Source: a virus
Virus record (IMG/VR): IMGVR_UViG_3300049811_000823
Coordinates: 1-40,541 of that record
Length of the DNA stretch: 40,541 nt
Strand: one strand, 5' to 3'
A model generated the notes under the pieces. The model saw nothing but the letters and a program-made list of their open reading frames with translations, was not told the origin of the DNA and searched no databases. A program made the translations under genes and the position numbers. Within the stretch, counting starts at the first letter, position 1. The number at the start of each line of letters is the position of its first letter. This document shows, piece after piece, positions 1,236-33,337 of this stretch.

Positions 1236-4200
1236 TTACTCAAACCTCGTCAAGAGGCTGATACCTATAACCGTGATGTCCTCGACATGGGGATGTTTGT
1301 TTGCAATTGATATCCAGTGGGCGCGAAGCGCCTGAAGTAGTCCGTCGAAGTCGACTCGCTCCCCTGATTGAAGTTGCCATTTGCGTTCCTCGGTTCGGTT
1401 CACTAGAGCGAAGATGCCGCGCGCGGATCGATTGTCGCGCAGGTAATCGCCCGAAAGCTGGTTCTCAAGACGCTCGAACAGCTGCGGTCCTGTCCAACGT
1501 TCCGCCAACTTGAGTTCGGCCGGCACAGGCGCATCAAAACCAGCGCCGTGGAACCGCAAATCGGGGCGTTTGTCGTCGGCAAACTCCTCCTCCTGCGTAA
1601 TCGTGTATCGGCCTTGTGCCTTCTCACGTAGTTCGTGCGCAAGATAGTTGCGCATCTCAGTCTCTTCCTGAACGCGCTGAAGGACTTTCGCAACGCTGTC
1701 GTCGCCGTTCTCGAGATCGTCCTTGAGATCGAGAAGACGCATGATTGCGAGATCGGCGAGTTCCCGGTGGTTCGTCGGCGTTCGGTCTAGGTGTTCGTAG
1801 AAGCCCCTTACTTGTGCTGGCGACCAAGGTGTGAGGTCTGCATCCTGCTCAGCCTTTGACCGCGCGTGGGAAGCAAGCCATGGTCGCGATGAGGCACGCG
1901 GATGCTGGATTGCTATCTCGGCAAGGGCCACGTAGGCCTCCTTACCGGGGATCTGCTTTATCTGATTGAAGAGGGCGTTGCGGGCGTCCTGAGCATTGTC
2001 GCGCAACCCTGGCGAGTACACGCCACTGCCCGCTCGATCGATATCTTCGTCCTCGCGGATATAGAGCTGCATCAGGAGAAACAGTTTCTTCAAGTGCTTT
2101 GCCGTGGCGTACCGCTGCCGAACACCCGTTGATTCCGAGCGGTGCCCGCCCAGTATCCGTGTAACGAAGGTCATCGCGAACGCTGTCTGCACTGTGGCAT
2201 CGGTGACCGATGCAAGGTGTGTTGTGACCGCGGATATCGCGTCCTCCGGGTCTACACCGACCCAGACCGCGTACCAGGTCGCCGCAACATCGGTATCGGT
2301 GGCCTGCCGGGCCTTGAGCTTCGCGAGCGAGGCGAGATCCTCGTCGGAAACCGACGTGCTACCTTGAACGATGGCCAGCATCTTGCCGAGATTGAAGAGA
2401 TTGCGGACGTCGTCGGCGCGGAGGATCCCCAGAATGGCTGGTGCCAGTTGCTCCCACGCCCATTGTCCTGACCAACTCACGTCGCTGAGCAGATAGTGGG
2501 ACTCTTCATCCGGCTTCTCTGACAACACCTCTTGCTTGATTTCATTCAGGAGGAAATCGCCAACAATCCCGGGATAGGCCTCGAACAGTTTCGGGAACCA
2601 CGGCGGCAAGCCATTCAGTTCATGGGCAGCGTAGCAGCAGGCGATGAGCACCTCATCCTTCGATAGGTTCGACGGCCAATCGGGCGTTTCCGCCGCTTCG
2701 ATATCCAAACCCGCAAGACCAAAGATGACAGAAATCGGCGTCGAGTTGGCTGGTGCGCCTTCGGAGCGGAGCGCAGGTCGATACTTGCGCCAGTAGTTAG
2801 TAACCCCCTCACGGTAGGCTTGCGCCACCTCTTCACCGAACTCAGGAATGAGCTCGCGCCAACGGCCAACAGTCCACCTGTTTGCCCTCTCGGCCTTTTC
2901 GCGGAGGAGTTCGTGCAGATACCACTGAGCCGTCGATATGTCGGTTGGGGTTTTGAGCTGCGGCGCACGAACGAGCTCAACGTGCGAACGGATGAAATCC
3001 TTGGATTTTGCGCGATCGTCGCGTTCCTTCTTCTCCCTCGCGGCGGCGCGCTTCTGCCACTTCTTCTCTTCGCGGTCGTGCTCGCTTACGGGCGGGTTGA
3101 GAAGTTGATCAAGACGTTCTTCAAGCTCGGTGTTGCCGCGGACAAGCTCGCGAAGCTGATTCGGCCACATCGGCGGCCGATTGCCTTTCATGTAGATGTC
3201 AAACGCGAGCGTGAGTGCAACTAGCTTGTCGTCTTGCCCGGTCAAGGTGCCGATGGCGTCGGCCGCATAGCCAAAGTCATCCACCCCGAATTCCCAATGA
3301 GCTCCCAGTGTTGCGGCCTGCCAGAAGTAAGTCAGGCGACGCTCATGCTTGGTATAGTGAATGCTCTCTCGCAAGGTGCGTACGTCATACCAGAATGCCG
3401 CGCGGTTGAACTCCGGCCACGCTGGGACCAGCTTTCCGAATTCGGCCTTCACGTCGCGAAGGTCGTCGTCCCAATCCCTGATCGCCCTGAACTTGTGAAG
3501 GATGCCGAGCGTGGGCTCTTCGAGCGCTTCCGCCCGTCGTTCCCGGATCAGCCGCTCAGCGGCGACGGAGGCAGGCTTGATGAGCCACGCATTCTTTTTC
3601 GATACGTCGCAAAAGCCCCGCTCGATGAACGGGGGGTCTGCCAGCATAAGATTGAGGCCCGCAGCAAGGCTCGGCAGAAGCTCGACGGGAGCAGTTTCGA
3701 CAAATCGTGCGACAGCATCCGTCAGAGAGTCGACGGAAAAGCGTTGCTTCGGGGCTACTTTACTCAACGCATCCAGAAGCCACGCGGCTGTTTCGGGCGC
3801 CGGGCTAGACGCGGCAACGATCTCGCTGAGCCAATCGCGGTTGAGCACGGGTGCTTCGGTCAGGAAGCTCGCGCGCAAATCGTCTAGGTCCTGGGTCGTT
3901 GCAACCGCCCGGGTCGCGCGTATTGCGGCGGCACGCGTATATTGGGCCGTGCTCGGGGAGATAGCCAAGGCTTTGGCTTTATCCTTCAGCACGTCGAGGC
4001 GTCCTAGCCAGACCATCCTTATGAGAAAGCTGACGATCTCAGCGTTCGCAGCATAGGTCCTGAGATGAGCACGAATGTCTTCGGCCAGTTCCGGGCTCGC
4101 GAAGCGTTGCACAGCGGCATAATCGAGGGCGCTACGGCCGGACTTCCCGGATGCAATCTCCTTGCACACATCGGATAGAATGGCCTTGCGCGTGGTGAGT

Positions 4201-5561
4201 GGAAGCGCGCTCGGGTCGCCACCCTCGAAGAGAACTTCGGGCGCAATCCGCAGAACGCGTTCGCGGATGCGCTCGTCAAGAATGGCAAGCCAAGGGAGCA
4301 CCGGCCGCATCGTGGGCACGATGACCTCCACACCGTACTGTTCCCGAAACAGAAGAGCTTCAACTTGACGGCGTGAGGCAGATCGCTGGAGCAGGTGCGC
4401 CAGCCACTCGGCTGTTAAGAATTCGCGAACTGAGCGATGATGAAACCGGACGGTTCCATAGATGGCTTCGTCGAATATCGGCCGCGAGAGGAGCGTTTGC
4501 TGATCGCGGTCATCCCAACCGGGGAGGACCAGCTGAACGGGGATGCCTTTGTTGTTATGGGACCCGTCCGGCACCTGGATAGTTGGCTCTTTTCCCAGAA
4601 TCGATGCTGCAGCAAGCAACCTCGCTCCCTCGCGAGCACGATTCGCCGCCAGGGGCTGCGCTTCTCGATGATTCTGATCGCGTTCCTCTAGCCTGCGCTG
4701 AACACTGTTCTGCATAAGCTCGAGGCGTGTGCCGATGCGGTGTTCCTTTTTCCAAAACTCGACAAGCTCTTCGAGATCTTGCGGCCTCGTCGTGAAGGAT
4801 TCCGCATCGGCGCGTTCGATCTCCTCTAGGAAAGTTCGCGTGTCGGTCACGCCGCGCGCCCGCGCAAACGTTTCGATCTGGGACGTTGCGAGATCGTCGA
4901 GAGCGACAATTCGGAAACCCGAAGGTGCTTCTTCTTCTTTCGACTCTTCTGTTTCGAGGGCATCGAGATCGAGCAGATCGTCCAGAGAGGTTTCGGCGGA
5001 CGGATTGACCACTGTGACCTTCGTGGTCTCGGGGGCGATCGGAAGGTGACGTTCGCACAATTCCAGATCGGTCTTGGCGCGCCATGCACTTGTGCGGCCT
5101 GTCAGAACGATACGCGCTCGCGTGCTCGCAGTCTGAATGCGACGGCCAAGCTTGCGAACAGCTCGCTCAAAATCGCCGGGGTTGCGAAGCCGCGCTTCAT
5201 CGACGGAGTCCAAGAGTAGCCAGCCCTCGTCGGTGGAAGCGAGCCATTCTTTGAATTCATCGAAGGTGCCGACCTCAAACGCCTCCTCAAAATCGTCACA
5301 GATGTGTTCGAGCCGAAGGAAGAACGCCTTCCTCCCTTCGGCACGGAGTTTATTGGCGATGTGACGTATCTCCTCGGTCTTGCCTGATCCAGCCTCGGAC
5401 AAGATGATGGTCCGATAGCCTCTCAGCAGATCGTTCCATTGAAGACGGGAACCGGTGAAGAAAGCTTGGTCAAGGTCAAAAGAATCGCTCGCGCGTGCAT
5501 GCTTTGCCAGTTCGTGGAAGGTGCGCCCCAGGTGAACGAACCCATATGAAGCTGTTGACAT
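1236..5561 (-). CDS. NACHT/STAND ATPase with C-terminal PD-(D/E)xK-like nuclease, candidate defence protein
   Basis: A 1441-residue protein when started at the ATG at 5561. That start is preferred because AGAGAAGG lies just upstream; an in-frame TTG at 5636 would add 25 residues. The N-terminal NTPase shows Walker A SEAGSGKT (55-62), Walker B WLLLDSVDEAR (114-124) and a sensor-like strand IVLTGRTSAW (151-160), which resembles NACHT ATPases. About 1000 residues of helical, repeat-like sequence follow. The C-terminus (~1325-1441) has a restriction-endonuclease-like signature: Asp in RPDLRF (~1334), E-x-K in AELK (~1349-1351), then ENQLSGDYLR. Proteins of this type sense invasion and kill or degrade; here that is inference. 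GC is visibly lower than in the phage genes, and the position next to int is typical for cargo. It stands alone, without a partner gene. Confidence 0.8.
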   Translation of the reverse strand: MSTASYGFVHLGRTFHELAKHARASDSFDLDQAFFTGSRLQWNDLLRGYRTIILSEAGSGKTEEIRHIANKLRAEGRKAFFLRLEHICDDFEEAFEVGTFDEFKEWLASTDEGWLLLDSVDEARLRNPGDFERAVRKLGRRIQTASTRARIVLTGRTSAWRAKTDLELCERHLPIAPETTKVTVVNPSAETSLDDLLDLDALETEESKEEEAPSGFRIVALDDLATSQIETFARARGVTDTRTFLEEIERADAESFTTRPQDLEELVEFWKKEHRIGTRLELMQNSVQRRLEERDQNHREAQPLAANRAREGARLLAAASILGKEPTIQVPDGSHNNKGIPVQLVLPGWDDRDQQTLLSRPIFDEAIYGTVRFHHRSVREFLTAEWLAHLLQRSASRRQVEALLFREQYGVEVIVPTMRPVLPWLAILDERIRERVLRIAPEVLFEGGDPSALPLTTRKAILSDVCKEIASGKSGRSALDYAAVQRFASPELAEDIRAHLRTYAANAEIVSFLIRMVWLGRLDVLKDKAKALAISPSTAQYTRAAAIRATRAVATTQDLDDLRASFLTEAPVLNRDWLSEIVAASSPAPETAAWLLDALSKVAPKQRFSVDSLTDAVARFVETAPVELLPSLAAGLNLMLADPPFIERGFCDVSKKNAWLIKPASVAAERLIRERRAEALEEPTLGILHKFRAIRDWDDDLRDVKAEFGKLVPAWPEFNRAAFWYDVRTLRESIHYTKHERRLTYFWQAATLGAHWEFGVDDFGYAADAIGTLTGQDDKLVALTLAFDIYMKGNRPPMWPNQLRELVRGNTELEERLDQLLNPPVSEHDREEKKWQKRAAAREKKERDDRAKSKDFIRSHVELVRAPQLKTPTDISTAQWYLHELLREKAERANRWTVGRWRELIPEFGEEVAQAYREGVTNYWRKYRPALRSEGAPANSTPISVIFGLAGLDIEAAETPDWPSNLSKDEVLIACCYAAHELNGLPPWFPKLFEAYPGIVGDFLLNEIKQEVLSEKPDEESHYLLSDVSWSGQWAWEQLAPAILGILRADDVRNLFNLGKMLAIVQGSTSVSDEDLASLAKLKARQATDTDVAATWYAVWVGVDPEDAISAVTTHLASVTDATVQTAFAMTFVTRILGGHRSESTGVRQRYATAKHLKKLFLLMQLYIREDEDIDRAGSGVYSPGLRDNAQDARNALFNQIKQIPGKEAYVALAEIAIQHPRASSRPWLASHARSKAEQDADLTPWSPAQVRGFYEHLDRTPTNHRELADLAIMRLLDLKDDLENGDDSVAKVLQRVQEETEMRNYLAHELREKAQGRYTITQEEEFADDKRPDLRFHGAGFDAPVPAELKLAERWTGPQLFERLENQLSGDYLRDNRSARGIFALVNRTEERKWQLQSGERVDFDGLLQALRAHWISIANKHPHVEDITVIGISLLTRFE

Positions 5562-5663
5562 GGCCTTCTCTCGCGTGACTTCTCGAAGATTTGATAATTG
5601 ATCCTTACCCCAGTGCGCCCGAATATACCTCCACAATAGAAACGGGCGGAGTGAAGCGCGTAT
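5562..5663 (-). promoter_or_regulatory. Upstream region of the NACHT-nuclease gene
   Basis: This 102-base AT-richer gap lies between the stop of the upstream minus-strand gene and the preferred ATG of the NACHT gene. On the minus strand it holds a GGAGGT followed by TATATT, and then AGAGAAGG directly before the ATG at 5561. A promoter private to the cargo gene is likely from the gap and the base composition, but I see no -35/-10 pair with correct spacing. Confidence 0.3.
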
Positions 5664-6335: not shown

Positions 6336-6626
6336 TCATTTGCTGTTGGAATTCCTGGTGTCGCGGCTTCGCCGGTAGAGCGTGACCACGGCCTTGATGT
6401 CGCCCCGAAGATCGGGCGGCAGACGCCCGGCCTCGCAGAACAGATCGTCGAGCTTCACCTCAAGGATGGCGGCGACACGCTCGACGAGATCGTCGCGCGG
6501 CGGGTTTTCTTGTTCACGCTCGACCCGGCTCCAATAGGCCGGCGAAACGCCCAGGCGCTCGGCGAACTCGTTCAGGCCGAAGCCCTTCTGATTTCGGTGA
6601 AAGCGGACAGTTTGACCGAAGGCCAT
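6336..6626 (-). CDS. XRE-family helix-turn-helix regulator
   Basis: A 96-residue Cro/CI-type DNA-binding protein. The HTH spans residues ~16-70: LNEFAERLGVSPAYWSRVERE is the turn and recognition helix region, followed by the typical LVERVAAILEVKLDDLF helix. It has no peptidase or dimerisation domain beyond a short basic tail. The start ATG at 6626 shares its A with the TAA of the upstream peptidase gene (TAATG), so translation is coupled. It is probably the prophage repressor or a Cro-like partner that acts on the control region at 7373-7694. In ICEBs1-like modules the repressor (ImmR) precedes the peptidase (ImmA); here the peptidase is first. Confidence 0.88.
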   Translation of the reverse strand: MAFGQTVRFHRNQKGFGLNEFAERLGVSPAYWSRVEREQENPPRDDLVERVAAILEVKLDDLFCEAGRLPPDLRGDIKAVVTLYRRSRDTRNSNSK

Positions 6627-7372
6627 TAGATCGCACTCCCGGTTTCGAAACGCCGGCCGATAAAGCCGCCCTTCGCCAACCGCACCGACATGAAGGCGGC
6701 GGTGACGCCGAAGGCTTCGGCAAGATCGTCAACGAACAGGCCCAGCGCGCCCTCGCTTGGATCAAGATCGACGAAGGGCACGGATCGGCCGTCCGGCGCA
6801 GCGCGCCAGCGGAACGGCAGATCAAGGGCGCTCGCGTGCTTCGGCAGCACGCGCGCCAGCTTGTCGGCCGGAACCAGAAACGCGCCCATGAACTCGTCAG
6901 CCCGCCATTCGACCCAATCGATCGGCGCGCCGGGCTTCGCGATGGCGGGCGCGGCCGAGGTCCGGAAGGTGCGCCGGATATTGCCGCCCATCGCCACCGG
7001 CATGTCGAAGATGGCATGCGCGAACTCGTGCGCGGCGGTTGACCGGATCACCTCCGGCTGATGAGCCAGCAGGCTGGCGTTGATGCTGATCATCACAGTG
7101 TCGGGCAGTTCGGGATCGTTCTCGCAAACGCCGAGCGCCTCGTGGCCGTTCTCATCGTGGATCGGGCGATCAAGGCCCCAGGACAGGCTGATCGGCTTGC
7201 CGTTGACCGCAAGGCGCGTGGTCCGGGCGATCAGCGCCGCCACCTCGATCGGCTTCGGCTGAATGCCGAATAGCCGGGTGCGGATATCGCTCGCGATCCG
7301 GCCGATTGTCTGGGCGCTCAAGCGATGGGGATCGCCTGCCGCCGTGCTTGCATAGGTGATGGCCAGAACCAT
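6626..7372 (-). CDS. ImmA/IrrE-type metallopeptidase
   Basis: A 248-residue zinc peptidase of the DUF955/ImmA-IrrE family. The zinc-binding motif HEFAH is at 115-119 (STAAHEFAHAIF), and the downstream acidic helix VEWRADEFMGAFLVP (~153-167) carries the third ligand. In known members (ImmA of ICEBs1, IrrE of Deinococcus) the enzyme cleaves an XRE-type repressor when DNA damage or a peptide signal is sensed. The adjacent XRE gene fits as substrate. The start ATG at 7372 is preceded on its strand by GGAGGCGG, a strong ribosome binding site. It is the first gene of the leftward operon. Its function as anti-repressor is inferred from family and neighbourhood. Confidence 0.88.
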   Translation of the reverse strand: MVLAITYASTAAGDPHRLSAQTIGRIASDIRTRLFGIQPKPIEVAALIARTTRLAVNGKPISLSWGLDRPIHDENGHEALGVCENDPELPDTVMISINASLLAHQPEVIRSTAAHEFAHAIFDMPVAMGGNIRRTFRTSAAPAIAKPGAPIDWVEWRADEFMGAFLVPADKLARVLPKHASALDLPFRWRAAPDGRSVPFVDLDPSEGALGLFVDDLAEAFGVTAAFMSVRLAKGGFIGRRFETGSAI

Positions 7373-14306: not shown

Positions 14307-15050
14307 ATGCTCGCCATCGAGACCCGCCCGATTGCGCGGCTGATCCCCTATGTCCGCAACGCGCGGACCCATTCGGGCGATCAGATTGCGCAGATCGCGG
14401 GCTCGATTGCCGAGTTCGGCTTCGTGAACCCGGTGCTGATCGGCGCCGATGATGTGATCATCGCCGGCCACGGCCGTGTTCTCGCCGCCGAGAAGCTTGG
14501 GCTCGCCGAGGTTCCGGTCATCGTGCTTTCGCATCTGTCGGAATCGCAGCGCCGGGCGCTGGTGATCGCCGACAACCGGATCGCGGAGAATGCGGGCTGG
14601 GATGAGGCCATGCTCAAGGCCGAAATCGCCGCCCTGCACGAAGACGCCTTTGATCTCGACCTTCTGGGCATTGCCGAAGAAGAACTCGGCCGGTTGCTCG
14701 ATGGCCTCGACGCCGAAACTGGCGGCGATGGCGCGCCGGATGGAGAGCAATCGTCCGATGCCTCAACCGAAACCGGGCGCGCGACCCTTGCCGAGCGCTT
14801 CGGCATTCCGCCCTTCTCGGTTCTCGATGCCCGCAAGGGCTGGTGGCAGGATCGCAAGCGGGCCTGGATCGATCTCGGCATCCGCTCCGAACTTGGACGC
14901 GGCGAAGGCGCGACCTATGGCGTCGCCGACGGCGTGACCGAGCCCGGCCTCAATCATTATCGCAACAAGAACAATGCGGCGCCCGGCGGCTCACCCCGCC
15001 CGCTGGATCGCGGCTGGACCGGCAAGAAGGACAAACCCGCCCATGGCTAA
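14307..15050 (+). CDS. ParB/Spo0J-like domain protein paired with a DNA methyltransferase
   Basis: A 247-residue protein. Residues ~5-95 form a ParB-like N-terminal domain: IARLIPYVRNARTHSGDQIAQIAGSIAEFG is read in two blocks, then NPVLIGADDVIIAGHGRVLAA with the G-H-G-R nucleotide/substrate motif, and VIVLSHLSESQRRAL. The C-terminal part (RFGIPPFSVLDARKGWWQDRKRAW) is the linker usually found between ParB and methyltransferase domains in phage fusion proteins. Here the two are separate frames that overlap by 8 bases. It probably targets or regulates the methyltransferase rather than plasmid partition. The start has ACGGAGA upstream. The binding site may be the GGTTCGC array just before it. Confidence 0.8.
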   Translation: MLAIETRPIARLIPYVRNARTHSGDQIAQIAGSIAEFGFVNPVLIGADDVIIAGHGRVLAAEKLGLAEVPVIVLSHLSESQRRALVIADNRIAENAGWDEAMLKAEIAALHEDAFDLDLLGIAEEELGRLLDGLDAETGGDGAPDGEQSSDASTETGRATLAERFGIPPFSVLDARKGWWQDRKRAWIDLGIRSELGRGEGATYGVADGVTEPGLNHYRNKNNAAPGGSPRPLDRGWTGKKDKPAHG

Positions 15051-15969
15051 GGGTCTCGCCCGCACCTTCGGCCAGGATCTGATGCGCGGCGAACATCAGC
15101 TCGGCGCGCCTTCGAATGGCGGCGTGCTGATGCCGTCGCACACCTCGGGCGATCCGGGCTTCTATGCGAAGAAGCGGGCTCGCGAGGCCGAGATCGGCCG
15201 CGAATTGACGACGGAGGAATTCCTCGCGGAACACTATGAGGCGTCCGATGCGCCGACCGCTTCCGGCACGTCGATCTTCGATCCGGTCTTGTGCGAAATC
15301 GCCTATCGCTGGTTCTGCCCGCAAGGCGGAACCGTGCTCGATCCCTTCGCGGGCGGCTCGGTGCGCGGCATCGTCGCCTCGCGACTGGGGCGTCGCTATG
15401 TCGGGATCGAACTTCGGCCCGAACAGGTCGAGGCGAACCGAGCGCAACTCGCCATCGCCGCCGAACCTTTGCCGGAATGGCGCGTCGGCGACGCGCGCGA
15501 TCTCGGCGCAATTGCTGCGGATGTCGCGGCGGACCTGATCTTCTCCTGCCCGCCCTATTGGAACCTCGAACGCTATTCCGACGATCCCGCCGATCTTTCG
15601 ACGCTGGACGAGGCCGCGTTCTTCGAGGCGCAGGCCGGGATCATTGCCGCCGCTGTCGCCCGGTTGAAGGATGATCGCTTCGCAGTTTGGGTCGTGGGCG
15701 ATGTTCGCGATGATCGCGGCTTCTACGTCAACCTGCCGGGCCGAACGGCCGAAGCCTTCGAGGCCGCAGGCGCTCGCTTCTACAACGAGGCGATCCTCGT
15801 GACCGCGGTCGGCTCGCTGCCGATCCGCACCGGCCGCCAGTTCACCGCCGCGCGCAAACTCGGCCGCACCCATCAAAGCGTTCTGGTCTTCGTCAAAGGC
15901 GATCCCCGGCGCGCAACCGAAGCCTGCGGTGAAGTCGAGTTCGGCGAGATCGAGGAGACGCTGTCATGA
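15043..15969 (+). CDS. Site-specific DNA methyltransferase (N4/N6 class)
   Basis: A 308-residue S-adenosylmethionine-dependent DNA methylase. TSIFDPVLCEIAYRWF is the motif-X-like helix, and VLDPFAGGSVRGIVA is motif I for SAM binding; GRRYVGIELRPEQVEANR follows it. The catalytic motif IV is FSCPPYWNLERYSDDPADLS, a CPPY variant of the D/S-PPY box that I know from this phage family. The order X-I-IV fits the gamma-type arrangement without a large target-recognition domain. It may protect phage DNA from host restriction, or prime bases for further modification. It starts 8 bases before the ParB gene ends, and its stop overlaps the PLP gene (ATGA). Confidence 0.9.
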   Translation: MAKGLARTFGQDLMRGEHQLGAPSNGGVLMPSHTSGDPGFYAKKRAREAEIGRELTTEEFLAEHYEASDAPTASGTSIFDPVLCEIAYRWFCPQGGTVLDPFAGGSVRGIVASRLGRRYVGIELRPEQVEANRAQLAIAAEPLPEWRVGDARDLGAIAADVAADLIFSCPPYWNLERYSDDPADLSTLDEAAFFEAQAGIIAAAVARLKDDRFAVWVVGDVRDDRGFYVNLPGRTAEAFEAAGARFYNEAILVTAVGSLPIRTGRQFTAARKLGRTHQSVLVFVKGDPRRATEACGEVEFGEIEETLS

Positions 15970-27395: not shown

Positions 27396-27703
27396 TCGCC
27401 CTCGCCGAATGGCACTTCGACGGCGGCGAAAGCTATTGCGCCGCCTGTCCTTCGCGCTGTGCGGGCTGTCCCTATGATGAGCACGAGCCCGAGACTTCCG
27501 AAGGCATGCTGGCCTGGGCGGTGATCCGCCGTTCGGCCGGGCAGGTTCGGGCGGTCATGGGCGGCGTCTACGCGCTCGATTTCGGGGCGATCCTGATGCT
27601 CGCCCACGCCATGGGCGCGCTCAACCCGCTTCTCGTCGATGTCCTGCCCGAGATCGAACCCATCGTCGTCAACGCCTATCGCCGGAACGCTGATCCATCA
27701 TGA
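27039..27703 (+). CDS. Tail assembly chaperone, predicted -1 frameshift product (gpGT-like)
   Basis: Predicted 221-residue fusion, joined as 27039-27389 then 27389-27703. Slippage on A AAA AAC (27383-27389) moves ribosomes into the -1 frame, which is open for 104 codons and ends in an ATGA overlap with the tape measure start. The extension begins RLIALAEWHFDGGESY, then has a C-x2-C-x3-C-x2-C cluster (codons 27437-27469), and then a helical end (GMLAWAVIRRSAGQVRAVMGG, in parts). That open frame has no good start codon before 27506, which supports expression by frameshift. The cluster may bind zinc. Confidence 0.75.
27383..27389 (+). promoter_or_regulatory. Slippery heptamer A AAA AAC for -1 frameshift
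   Basis: The heptamer is in the correct phase relative to the chaperone frame (GAA AAA AAC), four bases before the TGA stop. Weak stem candidates follow: CGCCG/CGGCG (27403-27425) and GGCGGCG/CGCCGCC (27422-27445). It sits exactly where tail chaperone frameshifts occur in siphophages. Confidence 0.75.
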
Positions 27704-30700
27704 GCGCCACGAATGTCTCCATCCGCCTCGGCGTCGAGGGGAAGGCGGAGATCAAGCGCGCCTTCGAGGAGGTCGGGCAGTCCGGGCAAGCGGCTTTCGG
27801 CTCGGTCGAAAAGGCGATGGACCGATCCGGCGCCGCAACCGACCGCGAGGTCGCGCGGCTGAAGCGTCTGGCGGAAGCCGCGCGCATGGCAGGCGAAGCC
27901 GACGCCTCGCAGAAGCGGTTCAATACCGTTCTGAACGTTGACCGCCCGATCCCGAAGTCCGCTCGCGACTCCGCCGGTGTCTTCGAGGAAGCGGCGCGGG
28001 AGGCGGAAAGCTTCGCGGCACGGGCCAATGCGCTGCGCGCTGCGATCGATCCGCTCGGCGCCGCGCAGGCCCGCCTGAACCAGGAACTCGCCGAATACGC
28101 CACGCTCGCCAAGCGCGGCGCGATCACCTCGGCCGAACACACAGCGGCGCAGGCGCTGGCGAAGCAGCGCTTCGACCAGACATCGCAGGCGATCAAGGGT
28201 GTGGGAGGTGCGACCGGCCTCACCCGCAACCAGCTTCTGACGCTGCAATACACGTTCAACGACGTGGTGGCGTCGATGTCGACTGGCATGTCGCCGATGA
28301 CCATCCTCATGCAACAGGGCGGTCAGGTGACGCAGGCCTTCGGCGGCTTGCGCGGAACGCTCGCCGCTTTCGGTTCGGCGCTCGGCGTTGTCGGCGGGAT
28401 CGTTGCCGGCGTCGCCGTCGCGGCCGTCGGCCTGACTGCGGCGTGGGTGGCGAACGACGCTTCGACGCGCGCCGTCACCACCGCACTGATGGGCGCGGGC
28501 CGGGCCTCGGGCGCGGCCGCCGCCGAGCTTGAGCGGGTCGCCCATAGTGCCGCCGAGACCGGCAAGATCTCGGTCACGGCGGCCCGCGAAATGGAAGTCG
28601 CCTTCCTGCGCACCGGCAAGGTCGGCGCGGAGGAAATGGGCCGCGCCGTCGGCATCGCTCGCAACTTCGCCGTCACGATGGGCGTCGAAACCAAGGCCGG
28701 GGCCGAGCAGCTCGCCACCGCCCTGGCCGATCCGGTGCGTGGCGCCGATGAACTGAATGCGCGGCTTGCCTTCCTCGACGACCGGACACGGCAATATATC
28801 CGCACGCTGGTTGACCAGAACAATCGCACCGAGGCGCAGCGGGTTCTTCTGAACGCACTCGTCCCGGCGCTGGCCGATGCCGAACAGGCGACCAACGCCT
28901 TCGGGCGCGCCTGGAACTATGTGGCCCGCCAGGCCTCCAACGCCTTTGACGCCATCGGCAAGGCGGTGGATCGCGCGGTCGATGGCCGCAATCCGTCCGA
29001 AGAACTCGATCTTCTGAAATGGCAGCGGGATCGCCTGCGCGAGAATATCCGCGGCAATGTCGTGCCGCTGATGCTGCCGCAGGTCGAGCGCCGGATCGCT
29101 GAGATCGAAGCCCAGCTTGCCGACCAGCAGCGCCGCGCCGCGCAGCTTGCGGCTGAAGCCCGGGCAAATGAGCTCTCGGTTCGAGCCGGGGAAACCGCCC
29201 GCGACATCATCCCCGGTGCGCGCGATCTGGAACGCCTGCGCCGCGAACAGGCGACCTTGCGCGCGGCGCTCGATGATCCGCTGACGCGCTCGAAGCTCAA
29301 CGATGTCGCGGAAGTAGAAGCCGCCTATCGGCGCGTGACAGCCGAGCTGGTGCGCTTCCGCCCCGCGGTCGATGCGGCGACGCAGGCCGTCGTCTCGCAA
29401 TCGTCCGTCACAGAGGTGTCGATCCGTGCGACGCTGGCGCTGGCGAACGCCTATCTCGAAAGCGCCTCGGCGGCCGAGCGCGCGGAAGCCCGCAAGACCG
29501 GCCTGATCGAACAGGCGCGCGAAGGCATCGATGCTGAAGCCCGTGCGCGCCAGGCGCTCCGCGAGCGGATCGCCGAGCAGGCCGCAACCGCCGCAAGGCA
29601 GGTCGCCGATCTGACGGCGGAAGCCTCCGCCCAGAAGCGCGTCAACGATGCGGTCGCAGCCGGCTCGCTGGCTTCGGCGAAGGCCCAACAGGTGATGCAG
29701 GTCGAGCAAGCGCTTCGCCCGCTTCTAACGGCGCAGGCGCTGGCCGAAGGCGAAGCGAAGGAAACTCTCACCCGCATCATCGAGCGGATGCGCGAAGCCT
29801 ATGGGCGGCTCTTCGCCGAACAGGAGCGCGCGCAAACCCTATCCGCCAACGAGGATCGCCGCCGCGAGATTGAATTGCTGTCGCGGCAGGTAGCGCTGAT
29901 TAATGCGACCGTCGCAGCGCGCGGCGACGCGCTCGCGGTGATGCGGGCCGAACAGGAGCTTCGCCGCCGCGGTGTCGATCTCGCGAGCGAGGAAGCCCGC
30001 GCCTATATCGAGTCTGCCCGCCAGATCGAAGGCCTGAACCGGACGCTGCGCGGGCAAGAACAGCTTCGCGATCAGCGCGACGAGATCACCCTGCTGGAAC
30101 GGCAGGTCGCCCTTGTCGGCGCGTCCGTCGCCAAGCGCGCGGAAGAACTGGCAACCCTTCGCGCCATCCAGCAATTGCGCCAGCGCGGGATCGATGCGGC
30201 AAGCCCGGAAGGCCAATCCGCCATCGGCAATGCCCGGCGGATCGACGAGCTCAATCGCCAGCTTGCCGGCCGCGAAGCGGTCGAGAACCAGAAGGACGAG
30301 ATCAATCTTCTGCAACGCCAGATCGGGCTGATCGGCCAGAGCGCGTCAGAACGCTCGGTCATCATCGCCCAGCTGCGCGCCGAGCAGGGCTTGCGCTCAC
30401 GCGGGATCGATCTTGCGAGCGAGGAAGGCCGCGCCATCGTCGAGAATGCCGGCAAGATCGAACGCCTGACGCAAGAGCTTCAGCGGCAGGACGCCGCCTA
30501 TCGCGCCATCGAAACCGCCGTCGGCTCCGCGCTCGATCGCTTCGCCGATGTGCTCGCGCAAGGCAAACTCGACTGGAAATCATGGGCGGATGCCGGACGC
30601 CTCGCGCTTCAGGATCTGAACCGCGAGATGATCAAGCTCGCGCTGCTCAATCCCCTGAAGAACCTGTTGTTCGGTTCCAACCTTCCGACCTTCGGCCAAG

Positions 30701-31047
30701 GCAGCGGCATCCTCGGCAGCATCTTCTCGCGGCTGTTCCATGACGGCGGGCCGGTCGGTGCGGGCGGTATCGGCCGCATGGTTCCGCTCCACGTGTTTGC
30801 AGGTGCACCGCGCTTTCACGACGGCGCCTATCTCAAGCCGGACGAGGTGCCGGCGATCCTGCAACGCGGCGAGCGCGTGCTGAACCGGAAGGAAGCGCGC
30901 GCCTACGAGCGCGGCGATCCTCGATCCAGCGGCGCGGTCGTCAACGTGACGATTCAGACGCCGAACCCGACCGCCTTCGACGCCAGCCGCACCCAGATCG
31001 CGGCAGGGCTCGCCCGCGCCGTTCGCTCCGGCATGCGAGGGATGTGA
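27700..31047 (+). CDS. Tail length tape measure protein
   Basis: A 1115-residue, mostly helical protein that sets tail length and is ejected with DNA. The N-terminus (VSIRLGVEGKAEIKRAFEEV) and the central hydrophobic stretch (GSALGVVGGIVAGVAVAAVGLTAAWV, in parts, ~227-252) are typical of tape measures. Residues ~722-930 hold three tandem 72-residue repeats that begin DEI(N/T)LL-RQ and contain LR-RGIDLASEEGR. The C-terminus (IFSRLFHDGGPVG, then RFHDGAYLKPDEVPAILQRGERV, in parts) is the common end of lambda-type tape measures. The ATG overlaps the chaperone fusion stop. Confidence 0.92.
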   Translation: MSATNVSIRLGVEGKAEIKRAFEEVGQSGQAAFGSVEKAMDRSGAATDREVARLKRLAEAARMAGEADASQKRFNTVLNVDRPIPKSARDSAGVFEEAAREAESFAARANALRAAIDPLGAAQARLNQELAEYATLAKRGAITSAEHTAAQALAKQRFDQTSQAIKGVGGATGLTRNQLLTLQYTFNDVVASMSTGMSPMTILMQQGGQVTQAFGGLRGTLAAFGSALGVVGGIVAGVAVAAVGLTAAWVANDASTRAVTTALMGAGRASGAAAAELERVAHSAAETGKISVTAAREMEVAFLRTGKVGAEEMGRAVGIARNFAVTMGVETKAGAEQLATALADPVRGADELNARLAFLDDRTRQYIRTLVDQNNRTEAQRVLLNALVPALADAEQATNAFGRAWNYVARQASNAFDAIGKAVDRAVDGRNPSEELDLLKWQRDRLRENIRGNVVPLMLPQVERRIAEIEAQLADQQRRAAQLAAEARANELSVRAGETARDIIPGARDLERLRREQATLRAALDDPLTRSKLNDVAEVEAAYRRVTAELVRFRPAVDAATQAVVSQSSVTEVSIRATLALANAYLESASAAERAEARKTGLIEQAREGIDAEARARQALRERIAEQAATAARQVADLTAEASAQKRVNDAVAAGSLASAKAQQVMQVEQALRPLLTAQALAEGEAKETLTRIIERMREAYGRLFAEQERAQTLSANEDRRREIELLSRQVALINATVAARGDALAVMRAEQELRRRGVDLASEEARAYIESARQIEGLNRTLRGQEQLRDQRDEITLLERQVALVGASVAKRAEELATLRAIQQLRQRGIDAASPEGQSAIGNARRIDELNRQLAGREAVENQKDEINLLQRQIGLIGQSASERSVIIAQLRAEQGLRSRGIDLASEEGRAIVENAGKIERLTQELQRQDAAYRAIETAVGSALDRFADVLAQGKLDWKSWADAGRLALQDLNREMIKLALLNPLKNLLFGSNLPTFGQGSGILGSIFSRLFHDGGPVGAGGIGRMVPLHVFAGAPRFHDGAYLKPDEVPAILQRGERVLNRKEARAYERGDPRSSGAVVNVTIQTPNPTAFDASRTQIAAGLARAVRSGMRGM

Positions 31048-31078
31048 ACTTAAAAGGTCGGTGGCGCTTGTCGCGCTG

Positions 31079-31417
31079 TTAGGTCGATACCGGCGAATAC
31101 ACTGTGTTGAGCGGAGGCAGAACGCCTTCGTGCTGAATATGGATATTCATCCAAGTTCGCTCAATTTTCTGGATTTCCAAGCATTCGAACCAGTAGAAAT
31201 AGGTCGCACGCCCTATAGTTGTTGGTGCCGTCTTTTCGTCACTGTCCAAGTGATTGTTCATCCTGCTACGCAGGTTTCTCGCCAATCCAACATAAAGTAC
31301 ATCATTTGCGAATGTGGTCAGGACATAGCAGCCAGACTTCTCCGGTACGAACCTCTCGCGGTTGCGCTTGAAGGTCTCATGCTTCATCGGCTGCGGGATC
31401 AACACATCGAGCTTCAC
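31079..31417 (-). CDS. GIY-YIG nuclease of the low-GC cassette
   Basis: A 112-residue single-domain nuclease. The GIY-YIG motifs are GCYVLTTFANDVLYVG (29-44, G-C-Y and L-Y-V-G variants), the catalytic Arg in NLRSRMNNHL (R52), the metal-binding Glu in IQKIERTWM (E86) and the Asn in PPLNT (N104). It is close to minimal GIY-YIG domains in size, so DNA targeting must come from a partner. Its ATG overlaps the stop of the DGQHR gene (ATGA), which implies joint function. It ends 31 bases from the tape measure stop. Base composition is clearly lower in GC than the phage genes. A role in defence against other phages or in anti-host activity is inference. Confidence 0.85.
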   Translation of the reverse strand: MKLDVLIPQPMKHETFKRNRERFVPEKSGCYVLTTFANDVLYVGLARNLRSRMNNHLDSDEKTAPTTIGRATYFYWFECLEIQKIERTWMNIHIQHEGVLPPLNTVYSPVST

Positions 31418-32541
31418 AGTTCGATATCTCCAGTCATCGAAACCTTGTGCAGTGCCTTTGAAAGCTCCTGCGAAACGACGTTAATGGCACCTGCATTCAA
31501 GAAGCTCGCGTTGCTGCCCTTGGCCCACCATTCGGGATGGCCAACGCCTGCATAGTCACCTTCGACGTTCTCAAAGCAGCTGGCCAAGAGCTTCTTCATG
31601 GTGCCAACTTTGAAATCTCCACGGTCTTGGAGCTTCGTAAAAAACGGGATCGAAAATTTGCAAAAAAGTTCTACCCCATTGTATTTATACAAAACTGACG
31701 CATTTCCATCATCGAGTAATTCTGTAACCGCCTTCCAGTAATTCAGAAAAATCTTCTTTTCTTTATCGAAATCTTTGACAATCGTGAGTGGATTATTCGC
31801 CGTCAGGATGTATTTAACGACCGCCTTAACAAATGACTTTTGATTGATCGTCGTGCCATCCGAGTCGTCGTTCGCCATGAGGATTTTTCCCTTCCACGGC
31901 GAGTCGGATGTTTCGTTCAAATAGATTACGTATTTGAGGGCTTTGTCGACCTCGCCTTTCTCGACCGTATTTAGAATCCATTTGGGCAGGCTCGGCATAT
32001 CTTCCACATCGAGCGCGTCGGTCAATCTCGCGATGATTCTCTGTGCCACCGATTGATCGACGCTCTTTTGCGTCGTGTTGACGATCAGGAAATGGCACAT
32101 CTGAGCGATGTGAGGCAGATTGATCGCGACGTTGACTGGTACTTCGAAGTCAAGAACCCGTGGGTCCTTCTGAGCAGCCAATTTCAAGCCTTCGAGCCGA
32201 TGCTGCCCATCCACGACGCTGAACGGTCCGACCAGCTTTGTGTCGATCTCAATCGTATGATCTTGTTCGTTGAAGGGGATCGACTTATCGGTTGCAAGAA
32301 GCACTGATGTCGGAAGAAAAGCGTCGCTTCTATCTTGGCCCTTCAAAATGTAATCGGCCAGCTTCTTTGCACGCGCTGTGTTTAGGAGCCTCTGATATCC
32401 TTTGTCATCCTTGTTGTCGGGATCAAGTGTCTCGACATTGTAGAAATTATCTGATGCAAGATCACGAACTCGTATCGAAGTAGCAAACAAGACGAGATCA
32501 CCCTGTTTCACGCGGGCAGCTGGTATCACAATCTTCGTCAT
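31414..32541 (-). CDS. DGQHR-domain protein (DndB/ParB-superfamily type)
   Basis: A 375-residue protein with the hallmark SVVDGQHRLEGLK (DGQHR at 111-115), preceded by a RAKKLADYILKG helix and LPTSVLLAT, the usual blocks of DGQHR proteins. This family includes DndB, which regulates phosphorothioate DNA modification, and proteins of the 7-deazaguanine DNA system; the fold is related to ParB/sulfiredoxin. The C-terminal ~220 residues (FVKAVVKYILTANNPL, then MKKLLASCFENVEG) are helical and not recognised. AGGAAAG lies just before the ATG at 32541. It is the first gene of the two-gene leftward cassette in the tail operon. GC is near half, far below the flanks, which signals transfer. Confidence 0.82.
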   Translation of the reverse strand: MTKIVIPAARVKQGDLVLFATSIRVRDLASDNFYNVETLDPDNKDDKGYQRLLNTARAKKLADYILKGQDRSDAFLPTSVLLATDKSIPFNEQDHTIEIDTKLVGPFSVVDGQHRLEGLKLAAQKDPRVLDFEVPVNVAINLPHIAQMCHFLIVNTTQKSVDQSVAQRIIARLTDALDVEDMPSLPKWILNTVEKGEVDKALKYVIYLNETSDSPWKGKILMANDDSDGTTINQKSFVKAVVKYILTANNPLTIVKDFDKEKKIFLNYWKAVTELLDDGNASVLYKYNGVELFCKFSIPFFTKLQDRGDFKVGTMKKLLASCFENVEGDYAGVGHPEWWAKGSNASFLNAGAINVVSQELSKALHKVSMTGDIEL

Positions 32542-32649
32542 GTCTTTCCTGCCCTTTTCCTTTGCTGCACTCCCGCTTGAACCTTCCGCCGATTCAAAAG
32601 CCGCGCGTTCGGCCAGAATAGATCACGAACGTTGGAATGAGAAGTGATG

Positions 32650-32674
32650 GGAGGAGGCCAAAGAGGCCTCCTCC
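32650..32674. terminator. Perfect 10-base-pair hairpin GGAGGAGGCC-AAAGA-GGCCTCCTCC
   Basis: A strong symmetric hairpin upstream of the DGQHR gene and before the next tail gene. It has no U-tract on either side, so it might be a bidirectional terminator, an RNA processing site or a stabilising structure. It is the best boundary mark of the inserted cassette. Confidence 0.5.
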
Positions 32675-32700
32675 TAATCGCTTCGCGTCACCAAACAACG

Positions 32701-32723
32701 GCCACCCGCGCGCTACGGGTGGC
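32701..32723. repeat. Hairpin GCCACCCG-7-CGGGTGGC
   Basis: A perfect 8-base-pair stem with a 7-base loop, 23 bases before the ATG of the DUF2460 gene. It may terminate or process late mRNA, or restrict entry to the gene start. Confidence 0.5.
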
Positions 32724-32746
32724 TCAGTCTTGGACCCACATCCGTC

Positions 32747-33337
32747 ATGCCGCAACCGTTTCTCGATATCGCCTTCCCCGGTTCGGTGGGGCGCGGCGCC
32801 ACCGGCGGGCCGGGGTTTTCGACCCAGATCGTCACACTCGCCTCGGGCGCCGAGCAGCGCAACGTCAACTGGTCGCAAGCCCGGGGCCGCTGGAACATCT
32901 CGACCGGCATCCGAAGCCGCGCCGACATGGCGGCGGTGATCGCGCATTTCCATGTCGTGAAAGGCCGGGCCTATTCGTTCCGCTTCAAGGACTGGAACGA
33001 TTTCGACGCTGCCGATCAGGCGATGGTGCAGATCACGCCGACCGTCTGGCAGATCGTCAAACGCTATAACCGCTCGGGCTATGAGCACGTCCGCACGATC
33101 ACCAAGCCGGTTGCCGGATCGGTGGCGGTGAAAGTTGCCGGAAGCCCGGTTACGCCCGCCTCAATCGATACGCAGACGGGCCGGATCACCTTCGCCTCCG
33201 CGCCGGGATCAGCGCCGACGGCCACTTTCCAGTTCGATATTCCCGTCCGCTTCGACACCGACAGCCTGCCGGTTCAAGCGAACGCCTGGGACTTGCAGAT
33301 CGTCAACAACATCGACCTCGTGGAAGTCCTCGAATGA
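32747..33337 (+). CDS. DUF2460 distal tail protein (GTA gp12-like)
   Basis: A 196-residue baseplate protein. Family blocks: FSTQIVTLASGAEQRNVNWS (29-48), RWNISTGIRSRADMAAVIAHF (in parts) and GRAYSFRFKDWNDFDA. In the R. capsulatus GTA the homologue is the distal tail protein that links tube and hub. No clear ribosome binding site is seen before the ATG; expression may depend on the long late mRNA or on a start further upstream. The stop overlaps the next gene (ATGA). The inserted cassette separates it from the tape measure gene. Confidence 0.92.
   Translation: MPQPFLDIAFPGSVGRGATGGPGFSTQIVTLASGAEQRNVNWSQARGRWNISTGIRSRADMAAVIAHFHVVKGRAYSFRFKDWNDFDAADQAMVQITPTVWQIVKRYNRSGYEHVRTITKPVAGSVAVKVAGSPVTPASIDTQTGRITFASAPGSAPTATFQFDIPVRFDTDSLPVQANAWDLQIVNNIDLVEVLE

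Follow-up and report, generated by a model that had tools for sequence, protein, structure and literature searches.

A conserved and mobile DGQHR and GIY-YIG gene pair, most probably defence cargo, in the tail-gene operon of a temperate phage

The window, a stretch of 40,541 nucleotides of viral DNA that makes up the IMG/VR virus record IMGVR_UViG_3300049811_000823, opens with a tyrosine integrase gene (positions 1-1179), from which we take it to be a temperate phage. Two leftward genes lie between its tail tape-measure gene and the gene for a DUF2460 tail protein, oriented opposite to the tail-gene operon, and their coordinates, strand and lengths in the sequence are exactly those given in the preliminary description:

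27700 to 31047, plus strand: tail tape-measure protein, left flank (PF06791, TMP_2, 1.4e-42)
31048 to 32746, no strand: inserted segment, net ~1.7 kb, from the tape-measure TGA to the DUF2460 ATG; the junction is empty in relatives
31079 to 31417, minus strand: GIY-YIG nuclease, 112 aa (PF01541, 7.4e-7, above cut-off)
31414 to 31417, minus strand: overlap GTGA, 4 nt, formed by the start codon of GIY-YIG and the stop codon of DGQHR
31414 to 32541, minus strand: DGQHR-domain protein, 375 aa (TIGR03187, 5.5e-33; Pfam DndB, 5.6e-15)
32542 to 32746, minus strand: 5' region of the cassette, 205 nt, presumed leftward promoter
32747 to 33337, plus strand: DUF2460 tail protein, right flank (PF09343, 2.4e-58)

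The pair had been described as of low GC content and as separating tape measure from DUF2460, which holds good: its GC is 46-52% against ~66% around it, and both flanking genes have Pfam matches. The overlap had been given as ATGA, the form found in most relatives; in the window it reads GTGA, because the GIY-YIG gene begins with GTG. The 4-nt overlap makes translational coupling of the two genes likely. In the 5' region, an AGGA ribosome site stands immediately ahead of position 32541, hairpins are present at 32650-32674 and 32701-32723, and there is one terminator-like match; a scan of this region found no sigma-70 consensus promoter.

A scan with the DUF2460 protein of the window recovered 44 related contigs, in most of which the tape-measure and DUF2460 genes are 0-7 nt apart; the two genes are thus normally adjacent, as had been claimed. 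In the phages whose flanking proteins are ~96% identical to those of the window (L045, L047, L048 and L050-L053), they share an uninterrupted TGATG stop/start overlap, and it is exactly at this TGATG junction that the insert of ~1.7 kb sits. One further phage with ~96% identity in the flanking proteins (L049) carries a different leftward gene at the same junction (2920-3327, minus strand), encoding a protein of 135 aa with sub-threshold similarity to RAMA and DUF4357. In a more distant phage (L074), a leftward ORF of 131 aa with no family match (6543-6938, minus strand) was observed there as well. Because the insert and the genes of these two phages all occupy one junction, we regard it as a cargo (moron) site that is occupied in a minority of these phages. 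Another related phage (L021), whose methylase and PLP-enzyme genes are 80% and 70% identical to those of the window, has a DGQHR gene of the same kind at another place, after the PLP gene and where the contig ends, which indicates a second, independent acquisition.

Two other regions of the window may be mentioned here. Beside the integrase, positions 1236-5636 (minus strand) encode a protein of 1466 aa that matches the NACHT antiphage protein HyoA (NF058534, 1718 bits, cut-off 1200), a known defence gene and the second one in this phage if the pair is counted. A DNA methylase gene lies at 14974-15969 (plus strand; N6_N4_Mtase, 5.9e-14), with a ParB_N-like gene adjoining at 14307-15050; this methylase could be relevant to protection of the phage's own DNA.

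The first protein of the pair belongs to the DGQHR family TIGR03187, which it matches with 114.9 bits (cut-off 58.85, E 5.5e-33); it also matches Pfam DndB with 55.7 bits (cut-off 29.1). The translation has the DGQHR motif at residues 111-115, as claimed previously, and this motif, Q50-R51 and F151xxxN155 are invariant in the 12 sequences aligned. The scores against the more specific models were below their cut-offs: 22.7 bits for the DndB equivalog (TIGR03233, 328), 47.8 bits for the DpdB equivalog (NF041060, 300) and 15.4 bits for the GmrSD_N domain (DUF262, 33.2). AlphaFold2, which was given smaller alignments with the plasmid sequences left out, produced a poor model (pLDDT 66.8), with which Foldseek returned matches to ParB/Spo0J and SspE, none of them significant; a PDB profile search with the protein found nothing. 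We propose that this protein is a sensor/NTPase of the DndB/DpdB-like kind (ParB/Srx superfamily), taking its fold and NTP binding from its family membership. In frame, the DGQHR protein is fused to N-terminal extensions that differ by locus: on the Rhizobiaceae plasmids it is DUF5655-like, just under cut-off (in L011, with related extensions in L009, L010 and L012), and that of L005 (7590-8000, 137 aa) is of another kind and has no match. Such variable extensions would be in keeping with sensing or docking parts that can be exchanged.

The second protein scores 29.8 bits against Pfam GIY-YIG (cut-off 22.6). Its eponymous motifs are G29-C-Y31 and Y42-V-G44, and G29, Y31, Y42, G44, R52, H56, E86 and N104 are invariant among its GIY-YIG relatives. 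The residue set previously called complete is therefore present at the catalytic positions, and the Pfam score together with the catalytic Y, Y, R, H, E and N places the protein in the GIY-YIG superfamily. It consists of a single catalytic domain with no added DNA-binding domain, and its AlphaFold2 model (pLDDT 82.9) matches the N-terminal GIY-YIG domain of UvrC (Foldseek E 1.6e-4). Its score for the homing-nuclease family TIGR01453 was 27.6 bits, below the cut-off of 56.05.

Relatives of the pair were gathered from genome contigs, plasmids and viral contigs; for loci from the genome-contig search, the flanks inspected extended over only ~1 kb. A lack of recurrent linkage between the two families had been named beforehand as one outcome that would refute the proposal, but linkage was found in all full-length relatives of the subfamily: the GIY-YIG gene is directly downstream of the DGQHR gene in 14/14, comprising 12/12 first-found relatives (at least 47% identity) and also L019 and L020. 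The genes overlap by 4 nt (ATGA or GTGA) in 11 other loci and are separated by 3-10 nt in L008, L019 and L020. In hmmsearch, every DGQHR protein above 270 bits has an adjacent GIY-YIG gene, except that of L021, which is cut at the contig end, whereas those below 90 bits (twenty-odd distant loci) never have such a neighbour. A gene order that recurs in every full-length relative found is far beyond chance. Carriers belong to the Alphaproteobacteria, Betaproteobacteria and Bacteroidota or are viral contigs, with copies on plasmids, phages and chromosomes; they include alphaproteobacteria, Cupriavidus (beta) and the flavobacterium Aequorivita (46-47% and 35% identity). Among viral contigs, neither the single DGQHR protein nor the GIY-YIG alignment recovered any relatives; the DGQHR alignment recovered three. 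About 660 genomes from the families of three carriers contained no carriers beyond those already known; the pair is thus rare, and the evidence for its linkage comes from 15 loci.

Some of the distant DGQHR genes are followed by a gene for a different partner of ~300 aa (L014:5974-7953, L015:6001-7871, L016:5884-7813, L018:5740-7791 and L043:374-2352), in the filamentous phage PfAC19, Providencia, Leptospira and Burkholderia plasmids, and one further genome. The partner, which forms one or two related families, gave no notable match in Pfam, NCBIfam or PADLOC, and its YYAxFF and RNxWNY motifs look HEPN-like by eye. This arrangement is possibly a second DGQHR two-gene module.

Three Rhizobium plasmids carry the GIY-YIG gene without a DGQHR gene, and these copies are decayed deletion remnants of the Sinorhizobium locus:

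L089, 4902 to 5267: orphan GIY-YIG gene, 5'-truncated, with R52 and G29 changed
L090, 4836 to 5270: orphan GIY-YIG gene, 5'-truncated and split between frames
L091, 4902 to 5192: orphan GIY-YIG gene, 5'-truncated and further truncated

Their state is consistent with a nuclease that serves no purpose without its DGQHR partner, although general decay would look alike.

Both genes are under purifying selection, with dN/dS values of 0.015-0.026 for DGQHR and 0.06-0.19 for GIY-YIG and mean identities of 63% and 49%, respectively. The distance matrices of the two proteins correlate (r = 0.95), which is what genes moving as a unit should show. The window and L002 share nucleotide homology over the two ORFs alone, and the GC content is below that of the flanks in 15/15 loci. 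These results show that the two genes are a conserved unit that moves between replicons. Several copies are found beside restriction-modification genes: L008 is directly upstream of genes for a type III methyltransferase (2e-165), a ResIII helicase and a Ppl-like protein (2.5e-87), and L006 adjoins type I HsdR, HsdS and HsdM. L010 lies between genes annotated as UvrD-type helicases, and L019 and L020 are near a Dam-type methylase and a second DGQHR protein, of 774 aa. Several copies have ordinary chromosomal or plasmid surroundings outside defence islands (for example, L002 and L005, the latter between pyrimidine-synthesis genes and ubiD, as identified by eye). The two-gene unit claimed in the preliminary description is thus real, being mobile, kept together across several bacterial groups, and present in phages and beside restriction-modification genes. 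As for the 774-aa protein (L019:9397-12573 and L020:7997-11202, both minus strand), it combines a DpdB-like DGQHR domain with an N-terminal PD-(D/E)XK match (3.5e-5), and together with the adjoining Dam-type methylase it is perhaps an unusual restriction-modification pair.

GmrS has a DGQQR domain to which the DGQHR domain is related (PMC4619093), and in GmrSD, BrxU and SspE such a domain acts as an NTPase that controls a nuclease (PMC10952713). The type IV restriction systems GmrSD and BrxU, which consist of one or two genes and are known from both defence islands and mobile elements, resemble the pair in coupling a nuclease to a domain of ParB/Srx type that has a DGQ(Q/H)R motif (PMC4619093, PMC10952713). 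However, the sensor of the pair is TIGR03187/DndB-like and lies under the GmrSD_N cut-off, and the nuclease of GmrSD is of the DUF1524/HNH type, whereas the partner here is GIY-YIG. In SspE, the effector of SspABCD-SspE, a DGQQR NTPase domain likewise gates a nuclease domain (PMC10952713), but SspE is a single chain with an HNH-type nuclease that works with the Ssp phosphorothioation genes, whereas the pair makes two chains and dndC was not found in the host genomes searched. DndB and DpdB share the DGQHR domain itself and are the best family matches of the sensor, but the pair is outside both equivalogs, was found without dndC or DpdA, and has a nuclease partner instead. GIY-YIG domains occur in an anti-phage setting in PD-T4-3 and PD-lambda-1 (PMC10952713), for which no DGQHR partner is described there. 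Nucleases of the same superfamily (URI) are found at the edges of Dnd loci, near DndB-encoding systems, and have been proposed as back-up suicide effectors (PMC10853773); in contrast, the pair is stand-alone, without dndC, and its nuclease is directly coupled to the DGQHR gene. The pair therefore falls outside each named system tested. PADLOC 2023 has no model for it, and PADLOC and NCBIfam gave only weak DpdB/DndB matches and sub-threshold GIY-YIG matches. In the literature searched, DGQHR and GIY-YIG appeared together only in PMC4619093, where this pair is not described. The earlier statement that no characterised two-gene system of this kind is known agrees with the libraries and papers searched.

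We therefore have a two-gene module that is real, conserved and apparently undescribed and that is most probably defence cargo. The reading we favour, with somewhat better than balanced confidence, is that the insert is a mobile anti-phage (counter-invader) module carried by a temperate phage and made up of a DGQHR sensor and a GIY-YIG nuclease. By analogy, it may work like GmrSD, BrxU or SspE, from which it differs in both sensor family and nuclease. The DGQHR protein would sense, and the GIY-YIG protein, too small for a DNA-binding domain of its own, would cut. In this mechanism, the DGQHR protein, as a member of the ParB/Srx-like DndB/DpdB/GmrS superfamily, would bind NTP, sense some feature of either the infected cell or the DNA that invades it, and recruit or license the small nuclease, which would cut DNA, possibly that of the invader and possibly also that of the host; the pair would thereby shield the lysogen from other phages. 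The preliminary description had the DGQHR protein reading a target that the nuclease cuts; of this, the division into sensor and nuclease has the support of analogy with GmrSD and SspE, whereas superinfection exclusion and modification-dependent restriction, also proposed there, are conjectural.

Among the alternatives, a toxin-antitoxin or addiction function is unlikely. The DGQHR protein would restrain a toxic GIY-YIG nuclease (through binding, NTP depletion or autoregulation of the kind reported for DndB), mainly stabilizing the prophage or plasmid, with any effect on phages as secondary abortive infection. The overlap of the two genes and their presence on prophages and plasmids would fit this arrangement, as would a first gene of regulator size followed by a small nuclease and the decayed orphan nucleases without the DGQHR gene; DndB has been described as a negative regulator modulated by ATP (PMC10853773). 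However, conservation is much stronger in the DGQHR protein than in the nuclease (dN/dS 0.02), unlike a typical antitoxin, and the contexts include restriction-modification loci rather than maintenance regions only.

GIY-YIG domains also occur in free-standing intergenic homing nucleases, and the precise insertion between two phage genes, with an empty allele in close relatives, brings to mind a selfish element in which the DGQHR protein would be a separate DNA-targeting subunit that aids its spread. We consider this improbable. Homing requires a cognate site, whereas copies of the pair are at unrelated sites, and other, unrelated leftward genes occupy the same junction in L049 and L074; the low score for the homing-nuclease family and the purifying selection on both genes over a long divergence also argue against it.

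The preliminary description had also linked the pair to phosphorothioate or 7-deazaguanine chemistry. That it is an outlying part of a Dnd or Dpd system, with its own cell's modified DNA as target, is suggested by the kinship of the DGQHR protein to DndB and DpdB and by the URI nucleases at Dnd-locus edges (PMC10853773). In the 7 host genomes and 3 virus records that were searched, all of which have the pair, however, neither dndC nor DpdA reached its cut-off, and the DndB and DpdB scores are far under the equivalog cut-offs; membership in cis is largely refuted, and we regard this explanation as very unlikely. The pair may still sense the modified DNA of an incoming phage. Finally, a phage function in the lytic cycle, such as DNA processing or host-DNA degradation, would suit a location inside the late operon but is the least plausible of all, given the opposite strand, the foreign GC content, the absence of the pair from nearly all related phages found and its presence on plasmids and chromosomes with no phage genes nearby.

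Returning to the defence reading, we tentatively suggest, while granting that a different outcome would not surprise us, that the pair is a self-contained, undescribed defence system of two genes, whose DGQHR sensor, of the DndB superfamily, licenses a minimal GIY-YIG nuclease without DNA-modification genes, and that it belongs as one branch to a larger family of DGQHR proteins with effectors, which would include the ~300-aa partner of L014, L015, L016 and L018 and the PD-(D/E)XK-like fusion of L019 and L020. DndB and other DGQHR proteins are widespread, and the role of DndB as regulator, NTPase or effector is disputed (PMC10853773). A DGQHR protein that is tied to one nuclease and to no modification genes offers a minimal system for testing how such proteins sense and act. 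If the pair is a defence system, it would extend the design that joins a sensor-NTPase to a nuclease, with both the sensor family and the nuclease being new, and would mark the junction between tape measure and DUF2460 in these prophages as a cargo site.
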